From Lutraria lutraria (taxonomy: Eukaryota > Mollusca > Bivalvia > Venerida > Mactridae), in the NCBI GenBank assembly GCA_964023205.1, contig OZ026850.1, positions 2,502,368 through 2,566,367 on the forward strand: a stretch of 64,000 nt of DNA, written 5' to 3'. Within the stretch, counting starts at the first letter, position 1; the number at the start of each line of letters is the position of its first letter. A program made the position numbers and the translations under genes. The notes under the pieces are model-generated. The model made no database searches and had not been told where the DNA came from. It saw only the letters and a list, made by a program, of their open reading frames with translations. Positions 1,206 to 17,897 of this stretch are shown here, in pieces.

Positions 1206-1439
1206 CTGGAAATGTTATCACGATAGATTTTAAAATTATGGTCTCTTGAAAAGTAAGGTTTAAAGCCAATACATCGGCTACTTGACCAATTTTTATCGAA
1301 CAGTATTCTTCAGGAAATATTTTGTTTATTTCATCCAAATGATATTCCTTGTTCCATGGCAGAGTGGCAATATTCAAAGACGACTGAATGCATTTTCCCA
1401 GTGCACGAAACTGAATCATGCCATGCTCAAATCGTGAAG
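1206..1439 (-). CDS. Nuclear receptor LBD exon, helices 5-8, version B (probably alternative to A)
   Basis: Exactly 234 bp, acceptor tatgtttcag before 1439, donor CCAG|gtcagt at 1206, phase 1 on both sides, joining to the 3611-3839 exon with an Ala codon. It begins [17 protein letters not shown] and ends [17 protein letters not shown]. The fixed points shared with version A are SRF, PWNK-x-YHL, K-I-x-P and the terminal IVITFP; the stretches between differ widely. A single LBD holds one such segment, so including both would duplicate helices 5-8. Mutually exclusive splicing is the simplest reading. Alternatives are a decaying duplicate or an exon of a second partial receptor gene. Confidence 0.88.
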
Positions 1440-4400
1440 CTGAAACATAAATATTAATTAAGATAGGTTTTAGCACAAAGGATGAAACAAACAAGCAGAT
1501 GATTGGTAGCTGGATGCTGAATCAACTTCATTACCAATCAATATATGTGTTCAATAAAAAAAGTACCAATAAAGACTTTAATTCCAAAATCAATACTTCC
1601 CAATTTCAAAGTAAAAAAAACATCTGACAATTTTTTTACTGAAATGTTTAAACATCACATACTAAATTTTACTTGATTAATATTGTTCAGACTTGAAGGA
1701 TAACAAAATCAAACGCACCCATTTTGTACTTCGTTATACATTTTCGTGACCTTTTATAAATCAATGAAATTTTTCACACACTGTCAAATGACTGATTTTT
1801 TCTGAATTGGTCAGTACAGACAATTTCCCCAAAATGTGAAAAAAAACGCTGTATTTTTGGGCGTAAAAATCCACCATAAAATATATGGTTATCTGACTAT
1901 GCAATAAAAATATCCAGATTTATCTTATTTCAAAATTACCATTTTAATTACCTGGTTCGCACTTCTTTTATATAAGTCAGCAAAATTTTTAGAAAAAAAC
2001 AACGATAATGTTAGTATCCAAAGAATTTCAACTACAAAAAAAAAACACAAATAACACTACACCCTATCTAGCATCCAACTACCGAATCACACAAGGTGCA
2101 AGCTATAGATTTCAGAGAAACATCTTTGGCATCACATGCAAGCATTAACAAACCTGGGAAAGTTATGACAATGCCTTTCAGTAAAACACACTCCTCCATT
2201 GTGAGGTACAACCTGTGCACTTCAGATATAAAGTTCATCTTAGCTTCGAGGTGATTTAACGGGTAAATTTTGGTCAATTCCTCTAAATGATAATCCTTGT
2301 TCCATGGAGTCGTGGTGACCCTGGATCCCGTTCTCATGCAAATTCCGTATTTCGGCATTTTTATCATTTGAAAGTCAAATCTAGAAACTGAAATATGGCA
2401 TTTCTAAGTAAATTTGTATTCCATATTAAATACTGGTACACATATACATCATGGAAACAGACCCGCCTCCGTGGTCGAGTGGTTAAGGTCGTTGGTTTGT
2501 TAAGGTCGTTGGTTTCAAATCACTATAACCTCTCACTGATAGAGGGTCATGGGTTCTAGCCCCGCTACCGACCATGTATCTTTATGTGAGAAAGTAGGCA
2601 GTTGCTTACGGAGGATGGGAGTCTAGTACTGGTTCTTCTCAGGAACAATGCTTAGGTGAACTGTCATACGCATATGACTCTGACTGTTGAAAAGGGGCGT
2701 AAAACTCAATATAAACAAACAAACAAACATCATATTAACAATTGAATATTTTGTGAAGAAACCAGCAGTCAACGTCAGAACTTGGCTTAGCGGAGTTTTC
2801 GAGTTAAGTCAGATTCTAGACTTCTACTACATGATATTGCTCTCTTCCACTTTTAATATACAGCAAATTAACTTGATTATTCCAATTTACATACAGGGTA
2901 CATCATTTCCAACATAATATTGAAGTGTCAACAAACTAGGCAACTATCTTTGGTAATACAGTACAACCTCTCCAGAGCAGCCCTCTCTTGAGCAACAACC
3001 TCCCTTCAAAAACAGCATGATTTCTCCCACTGCAGATTTAACTATTCATTCAACCTCTCTAGAGCAACAACCTCTCAACAACAACATATTTTTGCTACTC
3101 CTAAAGGGTGTTGCTTTGGAGAGGTTGCACTGTACACACAAAGACACCAAGATTAAAATTGTTTTGGCGGAAATTGTGAACAAAAATACTCCATGACTCT
3201 GCATGAATTTGTCAAACACTTCTAGTTTAAACTTATTTACTTTACATCGAATGTAGAGCAAGTTCTTACAACTTATATTAACTTTATGTACTCTTGATGA
3301 CTGCTTCCTGGGTTCTGACAAGTTCTCGCACCAAAAGAAGGGATTGTGAAGGTTCCGGTCAAATTCCGCCACTGACGGGATTCGAACCCGCAACCTTCGG
3401 TTAGGATTCCGACGCTCTAACCCTACACCACTTCTCCTCAAATAAATCCATGGTCCCAACCAGGGATTGAACCCTTGACCTTGAGCACTGTAGGTGGGCA
3501 CTCAACCACATCCCTAAAGACTTTACACTAGAGCTAGGCTGTTGAAAGTTGCCCATATACTTATTCCTTAAATCACAACAAAGCATATTCAAGATATTGC
3601 AGTTACTTACCTTTCACAAGATTCACCTGATCGTCAATAAGTAAATCGGAGAATCCTGGAATAAATTTGGCGAACTTGACCAATTTTGAGATCATGTCTT
3701 CAATGAACTGAAGGGCTTCGATAAGAATCTGTTGACGATTGTCAATTTCGATACCCGTCTGGTTGTAGAAATCCAAGTATTCTTCCTTTGAAATATTTGA
3801 CATATCGCCAAAAACTTCCTTCTTTAACGTGTATTGTTCCTTTATATGAAAGAAACACAATTAATTATACATTTCAGGCTATATGAGTCAAAATGGAAAT
3901 AAGATTATAAACAAGATGTTATTAAAAATAGAAGCAATATGTAAATTAGAAAAGAAACAAGATGTTACTAAAAATAAAAACAATATGTAATTTAGGATAA
4001 AAACAAGACGTACCTAAAAATAGAAACAAGTTGTAGATTAGGACAGAAACAAGATGTTACTAAAAAAAGAAACAAGATGTTACTAAATATAGAAACAAGT
4101 TGTAAATTAGGATAAAAACAAGATAGTACTAAAAATAGAAAGAAGATTTAAATTAAGACAGACACGAGATGCTACTAAAAATAGAAGAAAAATAGTACTA
4201 AAAGTAGTAACAATGAATAAAACTGCATGAAGCAATCATTCACATTTGGCTTATTAGTTAATTTCTCTGAAAATAAAACAAGGCTACTCACAAGATACTC
4301 TGCATGTCTTTTTTTAATTTCTGCGCAAGAGAGTTTCGGCCTGTCAAACAATACAGAAGCTGCCATTACTAATGTTGAAACAATCTTATGAGCTTGTGTC

Positions 4401-7400
4401 AGGCTCATACCCTGTCCAACCACCACAGCTGGATTCTCAAAGCGATTCAACTGCTGCATTTGTATCTCCAAATCATCAATATTATCTGCTGTATACACAT
4501 CGTCTTCAAGGTCTTGTTTAATGTAATCATTTGCCACCTCAAAGGGATCATTAAAAGCAGGATCCATTTTGGTGGCTATAAGAACATTGTCTTCACAGTT
4601 TTCCGGTTTTGTGTTTATAGGAACACCAGTGTTAACTCCGTAAAGAACAACTGTTTTGTCATCATTTAGGGCACTTGGCTTTATGTCATTCATTTGGGTC
4701 ACGGGACCGTTAACTGTTTCCTGTTTCATATCAGTAGGCATATTGAGACTGCTAGTTAAGTCAGCCACATCAACATGATTTGTCTGTGAATTTAAGTTGC
4801 CATTGGTCATGAGTAATGTCTCAATTGGAGAGGGCTTAACAGAAGGGGGCTTAGAATCTTGTAGCTGCATCATATTATTGTCTTTCAACAAACTTTCAAT
4901 TGGAGATTCAGTAACTGAATTAGAAATGGGAGCATCAAAAGTGACTGGTATTCTTAAATCATCTTTCACTTCTGCTTTAAACTGGTTCATTGATGTTAAA
5001 CACTGATCTTGACCATTGTGATAAATCAACTTTTCATCAATTTCAGCAAGGATATCGACCTCGATCCCGCTGTCAGGTAGAAGGTCAAATGATTTTACAT
5101 TTACAGGAACATTTTGAATAGGAGTATCACCATTCATCAATAATTTTTCAATAGGGGTCTGGCCGGATGATTTTTCAGTTGGGCCTGTGGTAGCCATCAA
5201 ATGATTACCATAATTCTCATTAATAATTCCAGGGGCAGGCAACTCTGAAGATAAGAAATCTTCAAGCGACGTCTGCTGCGTTGGATTAACAGGTGTTTCA
5301 TCGTTCAACAATCTTTCGACAGCTGACGGCTCATCAGACGGTATCTCTTGGTAATTCATGACAAATTCAACAGGCATAGTCTCCGGTGATATCATTCCTA
5401 CTGAAGTCTTCTGGTTTTCCATCAATGACTGTATTATACTATTTGTGAGTGAACGATACAGGAAACCGTCTTCTGGATCATTGTCATCGTCATGACGTCT
5501 TTTACGAGCCGTCTGTGTTTTCATGGAACTTTGTAGACTTAAGGAAGTTATATCAGATGACAGCTCTTCAGGAGAACTTACACTTTGACCTAAAATCAAA
5601 CAATGGAACTCAAACTTAGACTGTAGATTTCAAACATACATGTATCAGGTAAAGTAGGATGGATTTGTTTGTGAACAAAAATGATTATAATTTGATCTTT
5701 TATCAATATTTCAATAATGTGTGTCAAAGAAATCTTTTTGTCTTACCTCATTGTTGAACTTACCTGTACAAATGCTAGCATCTTTAAGTGGACTGAACTG
5801 TATGAAGACCAGTACCTTTGAAGTGCACTTAATTGTACTAACTAATAATTTATGGTGAACATGCCTGTACTAACACTAGTACCTTTAAAGTGAACATAAT
5901 TGTACTAACATTAGTACCTTTAAAATGAACATAACTGTACTAACATTAGTACCTTTAAAATGAACATAACTGTACCAACTAGACTGGCTATAGTGAACTT
6001 ACCTGTACTATATGGAGACAGTGAGGAACTTACCAGTACTATATATGGAGATAGTGAGGAACTTACCTGTACTATATGGAGACAGTGAGGAACTTACCTG
6101 TACTATATGGAGACAGTGAGGAACTTACCTGTACTATATGGAGATAGTGAGGAACTTACCTGTACTATATGGAGACAGTGAGGAACTTACCTGTACTATA
6201 AGGAGACAGTGAGGAACTTACCTGTACTATATGGAGACAGTGAGGAACTACTTTTCGATGAACTTTCGCTCAATTTTCTCCCGTCACCATTACGGCTCCC
6301 GGCTTTTAAAGATTTCACTTCTCGATCATTTTGTCTCTTTCTTGTTATCGTGTATCTACCGATCTTTATAGCTATAAATAAAACAATCATACGCCGTCAA
6401 ACCCATGATAGTGGTTAACTCTGAATAAAAGCCAATCTGTGAATCACAGGGCTTTTTTTCCATCTATAACAGAGGCCGAAATTCGGTGACTTCCCAATTG
6501 CAAAAATGCTGTTTTTTTCCCAATTTTAGGCAAGAAATTCAAAAAATACTATTCAAACTCAGTAGTCTAACTCAAAATTTGGCCAAATATCGCGCTTGAA
6601 TTTCCGAATCCCAAAATAAAAGGCTAAGGCCACTTCCCAATTTTTGCAAAAAGGCCGTGAATCAAGGTCATTGCCTTAAAACTGGATGATTCATTTGATC
6701 AAAATGACCTCCGAATAAAGGCCACCTGTCAATAAAGGCCTCATTTTGTCTTTCTCAAAGATGGCCTTTGTTCCCAGATTACACTGTATAAACACTTGAA
6801 ACAATAAAAAATTTACTTTCACTCGTGGATTTGATACATTCCCGACCCAACAAACATTAAATTGATTAATCAATGTCATTTCTCAACATTTTCAGCAGAG
6901 CTCCTGAATTCTAAAATGATATTAAATGGTTTCCTGTAAAAAATACAATTTTTGAGAACTCTCCTACTGGAAAATAAAGTAAAATCTGTGTACTGAAGTC
7001 AAGGGAAGGCCTGTAAGTCAATACAAGGGATGATTGGTAGTCTAGTGGTAACAAGGTGGACTACAAAAAGTCATTGCGATGGCTCAGCGCAACACTATCG
7101 TAACTTGTTCTTATTTCAATATGAGTTACGACACTCTTACGCTCCGCCTGCCAAATTTTCTGATACGCTTTCTCAGTGTCCCTATGCCAAATACCTAGCC
7201 AAGTACTGTGTTAAGAAAAGCACAGGAACCAGACGAGTCATGAATCAGTGCTTTACACCTGACATGATAAAGAACTACGAAAACTTATTTGGCCTCAAAC
7301 GTGCCTCGTCAACATTTCCTTTGGAAATTTCATTGTCAAAGTCACTATAATGAGAATCAGTCCGATTCTACCTCACTTTCACTACCAAAACTAATGTTTT

Positions 7401-10400
7401 TATCCCTATCTGAATTATCAGCGTCCGATGCGAGCATGATAACGAATAAACACCTCCGGTTTTCCATTTCTTAAACACTATGTACCTATTTTACTAATTG
7501 AGATATCTCAATCAATTTTTCTCTTCCGTGAAGGTAAACCTTTATACGCTGTATATAACGCGTTTTCTGATTGGTCTAAAAACTTGGAATCCCAAAATAA
7601 TGCTTGTAGACAACCAATGAAATACGCCGACACAACTCGTCACTCGGGATTCAAAGGGAATTAAATCTCGACGACTTAACTCGTCACGCGGGAGAGCCGA
7701 TAAAGTTTAAACGGCGACGTAACTAGGCGCTTGGTATACGGATGTCGATACGGGCGACGAGTTTACTCGTCACTAGGGTCAAATGAGTTAAGGGTAGGGA
7801 TATAAATGCCCTGTTCTCCTGTATCTTATCTCCCCTCTCTCTGGGGCTGCCCAGAAATGACCAAAGCTGTCCAATGGGCCGTTAAATAATAGATACAGAT
7901 AAATGTAATCAGAATAAAGAATATTGAAACACATACCGTCTTTTGACATCCCAACCATGATGCATCTTTCATAGCGACATTTCGCGCATGTGAACTTTCT
8001 CGGAAACTCGATGCCTAATTTTTTCTCTTCCTTTGTACAAGAACATGTGAAATCTATTTTTGCCTTCTTCAGGGTACGGCGAAAAAAAGCCTACAATGCA
8101 ATAAGAATGACTGAAATCTTTGTCAACAAAGGACCAGTCCTAACAATATATAAACTAGAAATGTGTCCGGAAGACAAGAATGCCCCCGCTGAGAGATAAG
8201 TCAAAAAGGGGCCATCACTCCTGTGAAAATGTTTGGATTTTAACAGAAATCAAACTTGATCTGTATTTTATTATTACACACATTCAGGTAAAATATGAAA
8301 CGAATCCATGAAATATTTCTTGAGTTATTGCTCATAAACAAAAATTTGAACTGACAGACAGGGATAATATTATATGCCCTTCTGCTATTTCAAAAGGGGG
8401 CACAAAAACTAATTTGAAAAGTATTTTTTGTTATTCGGAAAAAGCAGCTAGAAAAAATAGACTGTGACCGTAAAAATCCTGGGACGGCACAGTTAAAGGT
8501 TGTTCAATTTAGTGGAAATCAGTAAATTTTTGATAGTCAATTTTAAAAGTTGAAATTAGTAAAATTGCAAGCCTTACCTTACACGCCTCGCACGTGTTTA
8601 CACCATAATGAAGACCAGACGCTTTATCGCCACAGATTTTACAGGGAGGTAACTCAGTGCCTGAAATATTTTAAACACATTGAACATAAATCTGAGCTAT
8701 TTAAATTATAGAAATATCCTTTTACAATTTCTTTTGTTTTACACCAATCGTCAACTTTATTTCAGTTTTAAACAGTGCAGATCGTGCCAGGACATACCCT
8801 CCCATGGAAATTCGACAACTATGTTGATATTCCTCCACATGTGCGTACCATAACTAAATTGGTATTTTTTATCTTATCTTGTTGACCATTGTCAACAGCT
8901 TAAGACACTAGTTCATACGTCTATTATAATTCATCGAATTGTACACAAGTTTTACGGAAATTTGTTCGTTAAATAGGAAAACGAACGCGACTCAGATTGA
9001 GTCGTTTACCTGTTAGCTTTTAAAGAACGAGTGGCTATGACGATGAACTGCAATGTAATGCATTAGTATCATCGTCAAAGACCTTCGACTAGTGAAGAAG
9101 TTGCCATTTCCTACAGGAAGTACTGGTTAGAAGTGAACCAGCTGTCGTATATAACTGAAAATTTGTTGAAAAACAGCTTTAAGCCCAAATGAATAAATAA
9201 GTATAAACAGAAGAGTTGTACTTACTCAATGGGGTCCAGCCACTGGTTTCCGACTTAGTCTCTGAGATTGAACTATCTTCCATGCCGGCCTTGTCATGGT
9301 TGAATTTAAATCCGACAAGCTCGATGCCTTTGGGGGAGTCACTCAAAGCAACTTCGCCACTTGATTTAGTCGATTTACTTCCAGTTGGACTTTTCGGAGT
9401 TATCTGATTGGTTGACTTAGACGTCAGTTTCGACGAGTTAGATGAAGACATTCTTGTAGACTGCTTGCTGGTTACTGGCTTGCCAATGATACCGTTAGAA
9501 CCGAAGTCTACAGTCACCATAGAAGGGGACATGACCTGTCTGCCCGGCATGCTCAAAGGGTTCTGAATAGGGGGCAGCTTCCTGTATACAGGGATCTGTA
9601 TGTCAGAATTCTTCTTTATGGTAGTGGAGGACATTGGGTTTATTATGTCATTATCATGCTGTAAATAATTAATTGATCATTTTGTAACCATAATACTAAC
9701 CTACATACTAGTCTTGTACTTATTTCATTTGAACAATATTTCATTGATCAAGGACACTATTTTTTACGGGAAGTGTTAGTTTATTTTCAGTATTTAGGTT
9801 ACAAATTCCAATCCATTCTAAGTTCAATGTAATCTTGAAAATTATGACAACGAACACATTTTCAGCAGGAACCTTAAGGAGATTTGATCAGGTACATATT
9901 TTTAACTACATATCAAATTTTGACAAAGATATATGTGTAGAGGAATTATAGACTCTGGATGCCAAATTGGATGTATTAAAGTCCCATAAGCTTGTAAATT
10001 TATCCGTCGTAAAATTTTCTGTTTGTCCTATAACAGAGGAATCCGGTGTTGTTTCCTCCCGTGCATACTTTATAGCAAGAAAAAATGTTTCCGAGACCAC
10101 TATCGTATTTCTTTCAATATCATTAAAAAATACTACTTAAAGAACTGCTGTGTTTTCCCGCAGTCATGTTATGCACACGGCATAAAGTGACGTCACACGC
10201 TCTATATGTTTCCAGTTCACAAAAGCAAAAAGCACTGCAAAATGAATGTTTTTAGAAGAAAAAGGGGCTCGTTTTGTCAGTAATTATAATCTTGGGATAA
10301 TATCAGCAATTGCTTGTTTTTTTGCATAATTTTGATAGCAAAAAGCTAATGGGACTTTAACGGTCATAGACTTGAATGTCCCACCTATGTATAGTGCTAG

Positions 10401-15501: not shown

Positions 15502-17897
15502 TAACAAGAGGGCCATGATGGCCCTATAAATGCTCACCAGGAGAAAAGGTCATTTGGAGATTAACATTGTTGAAGTTTTCTATACGAGTCTAAGTAAGAT
15601 CAAGTGACCCATCTGGGCCGTTTTTTATCCCATGGCCATTATATGAACAGATTTTAAAGAGGTCCATTAGACAAAGCTAGATACCAAATATCTTAGCTCT
15701 AGGCCTTGTCACTGGTTTCGGAGAAGATTTTTTTAAATTTTCCTATATAAAATAGATTAAACTCCAGGGCAGGGCTAATTTTGACCCCGGGGCCATAATT
15801 TGAACAAACTTGGTAGAGGTCCACTACACAATGCCACATACAAAATATCTAAGCTCTAGGCCTTGCGGTTTCGGAGAAGAAGATTTTTTAAATTTTCCTA
15901 TATAAGTCTATATAAATCAAGTGACCCCCGGGGCGGGGCCAATTTTGACCCTAGGGCAATAATTTGAACAAACTTGGTAGAGGTCCACTAGACAATGCTA
16001 CATACCAAATATCTTAGCTCTAGGCCTTGTGGTTTCGGAGAAGAAGATTTTTTAAATTTTCCTATATAAGTCTATATAAATCAAGTGACCCCCGGGGCGG
16101 GGCCAATTTTGACCCTAGGGCAATAATTTGAACAAACTTGGTAGAGGTCCACTAGACAATGCTACATACCAAATATCTTAGCTCTAGGCCTTGTGGTTTC
16201 GGAGAAGAAGATTTTTAAATTTTCCTATATAAAATAGAATAAACCCCAGGGCAGGGCCAATTTTGACACCGGGGCCATAATTTCAACAAACTTGGTAGTG
16301 GTCCACTAGACAATGCCACATACAAAATATCTAAGCTCTAGGCCTTGCGGTTTCGGAGAAGAAGATTTTTTAAATTTTCCTATATAAGTCTATATAAATC
16401 AAGTGACCCTCGGGGCGGGGCCAATTTTGACCCTAGGGCAATAATTTGAACAAACTTGGTAGAGGTCCACTACACAATGCTACATACCAAATATCTTAGC
16501 TCTAGGCCTTGTGGTTTCGGAGAAGAAGATTTTTTAAATTTTCCTTTATAAAATAGAATAAACCCCAGGGCAGGGCCAATTTTGACACCGGGGCCATAAT
16601 TTCAACAAACTTGGTAGAGGTCCACTAGACAATGCCACATACAAAATATCTAAGCTCTAGGCCTTGCGGTTTCGGAGAAGAAGATTTTTTAAATTTTCCT
16701 ATATAAGTCTATATAAATCAAGTGACCCCCGGGGCGGGGCCAATTTTGACCCTAGGGCAATAATTTGAACAAACTTGGTAGAGGTCCACTAGACAATGCT
16801 ACATACCAAATATCTTAGCTCTAGGCCTTGTGGTTTCGGAGAAGAAGATTTTTAAATTTTCCTATATAAAATAGAATAAACCCCAGGGCAGGGCCAATTT
16901 TGACACCGGGGCCATAATTTCAACAAACTTGGTAGTGGTCCACTAGACAATGCCACATACAAAATATCTAAGCTCTAGGCCTTGCGGTTTCGGAGAAGAA
17001 GATTTTTTAAATTTTCCTATATAAGTCTATATAAATCAAGTGACCCTCGGGGCGGGGCCAATTTTGACCCTAGGGCAATAATTTGAACAAACTTGGTAGA
17101 GGTCCACTACACAATGCTACATACCAAATATCTTAGCTCTAGGCCTTGTGGTTTCGGAGAAGAAGATTTTTTAAATTTTCCTTTATAAAATAGAATAAAC
17201 CCCAGGGCAGGGCCAATTTTGACACCGGGGCCATAATTTCAACAAACTTGGTAGAGGTCCACTAGACAATGCCACATACAAAATATCTAAGCTCTAGGCC
17301 TTGCGGTTTCGGAGAAGAAGATTTTTTAAATTTTCCTATATAAGTCTATATAAATCAAGTGACCCCCGGGGCGGGGCCAATTTTGACCCTAGGGCAATAA
17401 TTTGAACAAACTTGGTAGAGGTCCACTAGACTATGCTACACACCAAATATCAAAGCTCTAGGCATTGTAGTTTTTGACAAGAAGATTTTTTAAATTTCCT
17501 ATATAAGTCTATGTAAAATCAAGTTACCCCCGGGGCGGAGCCAATTTTGACCCTAGGAAAATAATTTGAACAATCTTTGTAGAGTTCCATTAGACAATGC
17601 TACATACCAAATATCTAAGCTCTAGGCCCTGTGGTTTCAGACAAGAAGATTTTTTAAGTTTTTTCAATTTGTTGCCATAGCAACCAGAATTTTTAATGAA
17701 ATTTAATTTTTTGAACAACTTTGAAAGGGGACCACCCAAGGATCATTCCAGCCAAGTTTGGTTGCAATTGGCATAGGGGTGTAGGAGGAGATGATGTTTT
17801 AAGTAAACACGGACGCCACGTATTCGTAACGACGCACGATGGACGCCGGGCGATCACAAAAGCTCACCCTGAGCACATTCGTGCTCTGGTGAGCTAA
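15502..17897 (+). mobile_element. Element of tandem ~154/164-bp core repeats, Helitron-like/pearl-like
   Basis: It opens with a small hairpin (agggccatgatggccct) and holds about eleven core monomers of two alternating lengths, ~164 and ~154 bp ('gtagaggtccactagacaat' ... 'gacccccggggcggggccaa'). A unique right flank follows, ending with a hairpin AGCTCACC...GGTGAGCT followed by AAAA. Bivalve 'pearl' elements, considered non-autonomous Helitron relatives, have such a flank/core-array/flank layout; a 3' hairpin followed by CTAA would fit that (inference). No coding. Partial relatives: 24180-24330, 31775-31815 and 33245-33495. Confidence 0.8.
16045..17318 (+). repeat. 637-bp higher-order repeat, two near-identical copies
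   Basis: Inside the core array the monomers repeat as a four-monomer block of 637 bp. Landmarks at 16141, 16295, 16459, 16614 and 16778 recur at 16778, 16932, 17096, 17251 and 17415, including diagnostic variants ('gtagtggtcc', 'cctttataaaatag'). This points to a recent unequal exchange or an assembly collapse/expansion. Confidence 0.88.

Follow-up and report, generated by a model that had tools for sequence, protein, structure and literature searches.

EcR is a member of the NR1 receptors, and the crustacean version of this receptor is, by analogy, the nearest precedent for exchanging a segment of the ligand-binding domain (LBD) within one gene. Eriocheir sinensis Es-EcR-4 is described as losing the 150-bp exon 7 and keeping a same-length 150-bp stretch of the LBD instead, Macrobrachium nipponense MnEcR carries a 49-residue substitution, and variation in the D/E domains is reported for 10 of the 11 crustaceans tabulated in that paper (PMC5636884). 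As in the clam gene described here, the account given is of one receptor gene with a common DNA-binding domain (DBD) and an equal-length LBD segment that is swapped (PMC5636884). However, crustacean EcR is another receptor from another phylum, the segment is shorter, and the term used by the Eriocheir authors in their description is exon skipping with intron retention, not mutually exclusive exons (PMC5636884). The original prediction had treated alternative LBD-core exons as not known to be standard among NR1 receptors, a claim that has to be trimmed in view of the equal-length 150-bp swap reported for Eriocheir EcR (PMC5636884).

Homologous tandem exons of which one or the other is used, like the clam pair, have been catalogued in human, where 236 tandem duplicated exon substitutions, often old, are listed in 214 genes (PMC9741552). 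As summarized there, ligand-binding residues tend to lie outside the swapped regions, and where the two overlap, 80.6% of these residues are kept; the phrase "nuclear receptor" is absent from the main text of the paper (PMC9741552). In the clam pair, in contrast, the differences pile up in the helices that form the pocket. For molluscs, the oyster NR1P group is described as a mollusc-only NR1-like branch with weak similarity to NR1C-F (PMC4070562), and the clam receptor is a possible member. Alternative splicing of one gene also yields bivalve receptor isoforms in the case of Chlamys farreri RXR; these are stated to differ by small T-box insertions only, and the mollusc RXR isoforms known at publication to differ in the C domain only (PMC3774650). 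Mutually exclusive exons are reported for an oyster lipid-binding protein gene (PMC5399370). The open-access literature that we searched lists no case of alternative LBD exons in a nuclear receptor of a mollusc.

The window, by which we mean the whole 64,000-nt stretch of Lutraria lutraria DNA that was analysed, was placed on contig C19 of a genome of 728.5 Mb in 71 contigs. On its minus strand lies a nuclear receptor gene with eight exon positions, of which position 7 is present in two versions, 7B and 7A (Table 1). The two products with a single exon 7, the A form and the B form, are 931 aa each and contain no internal stop. Products with both exons 7 (1009 aa) or with neither (853 aa) are in frame too, so the reading frame does not enforce exclusivity. 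Elsewhere in the window, a 31-bp tandem array (5995-6249, 8.2 copies, 94% matches) lies directly past exon 4, and its unit is a copy of the exon 4 end with a full donor site (CAG/GTAAGT); the corresponding exon 4 end is repeated in the protein of a Mya model, P0014. A satellite-like array of period 319 (or 164) occupies 15658-17662 (6.3 copies, 93% matches).

Table 1. Features of the receptor gene and of the intron between its two exons 7. Positions are those of the window; helix assignments and exon roles are predictions.
Feature	Position	Strand	Basis
Exon 1, coding from the model's first ATG (putative start)	9226..9634	-	protein N-terminus aligns with orthologs
Exon 2, first zinc finger, P-box CEACKAFFRR, running into exon 3	8578..8660	-	Pfam zf-C4 E 1.8e-20
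Exon 3, second zinc finger with non-canonical CxC...CxxC, plus C-terminal extension	7937..8090	-	
Exon 4, hinge start	6222..6371	-	gene model
Exon 5, long DBD-LBD linker region, 4 PIExLL-like motifs	4292..5589	-	
Exon 6 (...DQVNLVK), LBD to helix 4, common to both forms	3611..3839	-	
Exon 7B, very likely alternative LBD exon, helices 5-8, apparently the faster-evolving type	2154..2387	-	
Stem 5' arm; 14-bp core begins 71 nt past the 7B donor	2070..2090	-	
Stem 3' arm; 14-bp core ends 65 nt ahead of the 7A acceptor	1499..1518	-	
Exon 7A, very likely alternative LBD exon, helices 5-8, apparently the slower-evolving type	1206..1439	-	
Exon 8, common last exon, helices 9-12 and stop	-1411..-1649 (outside window)	-	fetched flank

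The encoded protein has a C4 zinc-finger DBD, recognized by Pfam zf-C4 (Table 1), whose best solved relatives are RORgamma (PDB, E 2.5e-22) and NR1D1. For the LBD, the best solved relatives are NR1D2 and then the vitamin D receptor (VDR). Both forms exceed the PF00104 cut-off of 23.5 bits (A form, 41.5 bits; B form, 41.9 bits), and their alignments to NR1D2 score 59.5 and 60.1 bits, respectively. The VVLELF sequence in exon 8 fits the AF-2 motif and is a candidate for the AF-2 helix. The cysteines of a second zinc finger are usually spaced Cx5C-x(7-12)-CxxC, and those in exon 3 are spaced CxC-x(13-22)-CxxC. Across 43 rows (the window and P0001-P0042), 35 had a recognizable first finger; the odd spacing was present in 18 of these 35 (the window, P0001-5, 7-10, 12 and 15-21), the usual spacing in 15 and neither in 2. 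The odd second finger seems to be common to a whole group of bivalve receptors, and its spacing would alter the D-box. In the region between DBD and LBD we observed repeated PIExLL-like motifs, four each in the window, P0001 and P0003 and three each in P0002, P0004 and P0005. These repeats resemble the LxxLL boxes of coactivators and may dock on the AF-2 surface of the same receptor.

The exon pair itself proved to be as originally predicted: 7B and 7A are 234 bp each, open and of phase 1-1, have good splice sites (AG acceptors CATATTTCAG and TATGTTTCAG; GT donors GTTTGT and GTCAGT), and each joins exon 6, and likewise the common exon 8, in frame. They are neighbouring homologous exons of equal length and phase, which is one of the marks of mutually exclusive tandem exons. 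The peptides share the 33 residues first counted, over 78 positions rather than 77, and their alignment scores 185, compared to 50 for the best of 2000 shuffles. Identity by codon position was 44, 54 and 27 of 78 (positions 1, 2 and 3), and the pair is, judged from this pattern, one in which the protein has been kept and the silent positions are worn out. A dinucleotide model built from the local introns gives a probability of 0.003 for a frame that stays open over 78 codons. An argument from weak splice sites was dropped: the exon 7 donors match at 8 and 7 of 9 positions, and because the gene's other donors range from 6 to 9, splice-site strengths set 7A and 7B apart only unclearly.

When aligned to NR1D2, exon 7 covers helix 4/5 to helix 8, in line with the proposed span of helices 5-8. 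With helix boundaries set by hand from this alignment, the identities between 7A and 7B are as follows: helix 5, 6/16; beta-turn region, 8/18; helix 6, 5/9; helix 7, 3/17; helix 8, 11/18. The largest differences between the two are in helices 7 and 5. In known receptors, helix 5, helix 7 and the beta-turn line the pocket. From the location of these differences, it is plausible that the A and B forms have two different ligands.

A tblastn search of 84 kb detected exon 7 twice (7A-7B match, E 1.7e-20) and exons 6 and 8 once each; no further copy of exon 6, 7 or 8 was present in these 84 kb, where the remaining matches had E values of at least 0.1. The locus could also be read as a tandem pair of genes, one of them perhaps a pseudogene, with separate 3' or 5' ends, and tandem copies of the receptor do exist near 16 Mb on the same chromosome. 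We set this reading aside as highly improbable because, within the 84 kb searched, both exons 7 share a single exon 6 and a single exon 8 and have usable splice sites and equal phase. Across the genome, the LBD had 34 matches. The two paralogs that we examined, near 16 Mb on C19, have exons 6, 7 and 8 with identical boundaries and one exon 7 each, so the doubling is no feature of those two neighbours; further paralog loci lie on chromosomes 4, 6, 7, 10 and 15, and one more on 19. We also observed that a cluster of related receptors on C19, at about 15.99-16.02 Mb, has the same LBD exon plan. In relatives on C4, C6, C7 and C10, the LBD lies in one open frame, which suggests that they are intronless copies.

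Protein searches yielded five full-length orthologs, all of which have a single exon 7, 77-79 residues long. Three are A-type: P0001 from Mercenaria mercenaria (isoform X3; 48/78 identities with 7A, 35/78 with 7B), P0004 from Dreissena polymorpha (35/77 with 7A, 30/77 with 7B) and P0005 from Mya arenaria (41/77 with 7A, 31/77 with 7B). The other two are B-type: P0002 from Mactra antiquata (38/78 with 7B, 29/78 with 7A) and P0003 from Ruditapes philippinarum (isoform X1; 34/78 with 7B, 32/78 with 7A), the latter assigned by the tree, as its identity margin for B over A is slim. These counts omit P0006, which has no LBD, and P0014, a second Mya model with a truncated exon 7. Mercenaria and Ruditapes both belong to the Veneridae and agree at 72/76 residues of exon 6 (95%) and 68/79 of exon 8 (86%), but at only 33/78 of exon 7 (42%), a split that a gene with a single exon 7 would not be expected to show. 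Both types together were seen in the window alone, the other clams being represented by protein models. When short LBD fragments were sought among 2756 candidate proteins, none matched at E 1e-5, and no transcript was seen. The single exon 6 and single exon 8 in 84 kb, together with clam models that carry either type, bear out the view that 7A and 7B are parts of a single receptor gene, and they are very likely alternative exons.

The phylogeny of exon 7 was inferred from 22 rows (20 of the 42 matched proteins plus the two window forms) and from a smaller set of 11. One branch parts all A-type from all B-type sequences, with support of 91/91 (94/92 in the smaller set); group supports in the large tree were 80/74 for A and 91/91 for B, below the star threshold. 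The tree of exons 6 and 8 instead pairs Mercenaria with Ruditapes (95/91) and Mactra with the window (98/95). The AU test rejected a recent duplication in the lineage of the window, in which its A and B exons would be sisters (p 0.0026; smaller set, 0.0005), and likewise rejected a sister relationship of the Mercenaria and Ruditapes exons 7 (P0001 and P0003; p 0.022; smaller set, 0.006). The duplication is therefore older than the split between Mactridae and Veneridae. The tests did not reject a duplication later than the Myida split (p 0.27 and 0.24), which leaves the Mactridae-Veneridae split as the sole bound on the age of the pair. A clade of the window's 7A and P0001 was absent from the best tree and was not rejected (AU p 0.23).

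Path lengths for the B type were much greater in exon 7 than in exons 6 and 8 (window to Mactra, 1.52 versus 0.23; window to Ruditapes, 1.93 versus 0.40), while the A-type path from the window to Mercenaria was 0.74 in exon 7 versus 0.41 in exons 6 and 8. These lengths suggest that the B type evolves faster than the A type. So rapid a change of B exons is also what would be seen if 7A were the normal exon and 7B a duplicate in decay, with a frame that is open by chance and with little or no use. We regard such decay as improbable, since the B-type exon is open over 78-79 codons and keeps the nuclear receptor anchors in three species, third codon positions are worn between A and B while positions 1 and 2 are kept, two annotated orthologs use a B-type exon, and B has residues of its own (F6, P12, Y43 and E57, in 3/3 B rows and 0/4 A rows).

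The predicted mutual exclusivity of 7A and 7B agrees with the finding of one exon 7 in 5/5 orthologous protein models, with the reservation that these are models and not transcripts; on this footing, mutual exclusivity is likely. Neither the frame nor a short intron can be its enforcer, as all combinations are in frame and 714 nt of intron separate the two exons. The same two facts suit a gene whose exons are alternative without being strictly exclusive, producing A, B and double-inclusion forms: the doubled product of 1009 aa is in frame, and an intron of 714 nt is spliceable by length. We consider this unlikely, although less so than decay of 7B, as two copies of exon 7 were found in 0/5 full-length orthologous models, a doubled block of helices 5-8 should not fold as a single LBD, and the intron between 7B and 7A is bracketed by a stem.

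FGFR2 IIIb/IIIc has a stem in the intron between its alternative exons. Intronic base pairing has been proposed to control the choice of tandem exons in PGRP-LC and others, as reported in a paper on such structures (PMC9013439). In the clam gene, a 20-bp stem interrupted by one bulged base can fold within the 714-nt intron that separates 7B from 7A; it differs from the competing or looping RNA structures of the PGRP-LC kind in being single, non-competing and seen in one genome. Its energy is -30.9 kcal/mol, compared to a mean of -19.6 and a minimum of -24.3 in 160 shuffles. Genomic DNA is a stricter control than shuffles: among 117 genomic windows of 714 nt, the intron's own included, equal or stronger stems occurred in 12 with arms at least 100 nt apart and in 4 with arms at least 500 nt apart. 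In 274 kb, scanned as 1490 window-strands, a stem between the two 110-nt ends reached -31.7 just once, at a place that overlaps the 7B-7A intron. A duplex test with 160-nt ends was weaker (10/300 shuffles reach the intron's value), and the folding energy of the whole intron is ordinary (-148.8 versus -144.8, sd 6.2). The stem was selected from 24 inverted repeats after its position was known, and the 110-nt end zones were chosen later still.

The arms could instead be the inverted ends of a transposable element with no role in splicing. Comparable stems elsewhere in the genome (the 12 of 117 windows) lend this some weight, but the intron is not multicopy: a genome search with window positions 1500-2090, which skips very common words, gave three matches: the query's own locus and two partial matches to its interior, of 72% and 76% identity, neither of which reached the arms. 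We judge a transposon origin possible, if doubtful. As a post hoc pick from one genome, the stem is a candidate that may help to hold 7A and 7B apart.

Taken together, these data give us considerable confidence that this heterodont clam receptor gene contains two ancient, diverged exons for helices 5-8 and that its pre-mRNA takes 7A or 7B, never both. The spliceosome would join exon 6 to either 7A or 7B and this in turn to exon 8, leaving the DBD, helices 1-4 and helices 9-12 constant while the middle of the LBD is swapped, and the stem in the 714-nt intron may help to stop 7B from being spliced to 7A. Both products would recognize the same DNA sites, retain the putative AF-2 segment of exon 8 and differ in the pocket. 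One gene probably makes two receptors in this way, which would read the same DNA and sense different molecules. The slow A exon might answer to a steady ligand and the fast B exon to a shifting one. A fuller joint reading, in which the A pocket takes an internal ligand, the B pocket senses diet, microbes or pollutants, and the choice is set by the stem looping the intron, is speculative, and we think it rather unlikely to hold in all its parts.

Receptors usually gain new ligands via gene duplication. If the present reading is true, most of a pocket is swapped within one gene and has been kept so since before the Mactridae-Veneridae split, and a single gene would respond to two signals through one set of target genes. 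Surveys that take one protein per gene would miss such pockets. In commercially farmed clams, few of whose receptor ligands are known, the exon pair would serve as a natural A/B comparison for the part that helices 5-8 play in ligand choice.
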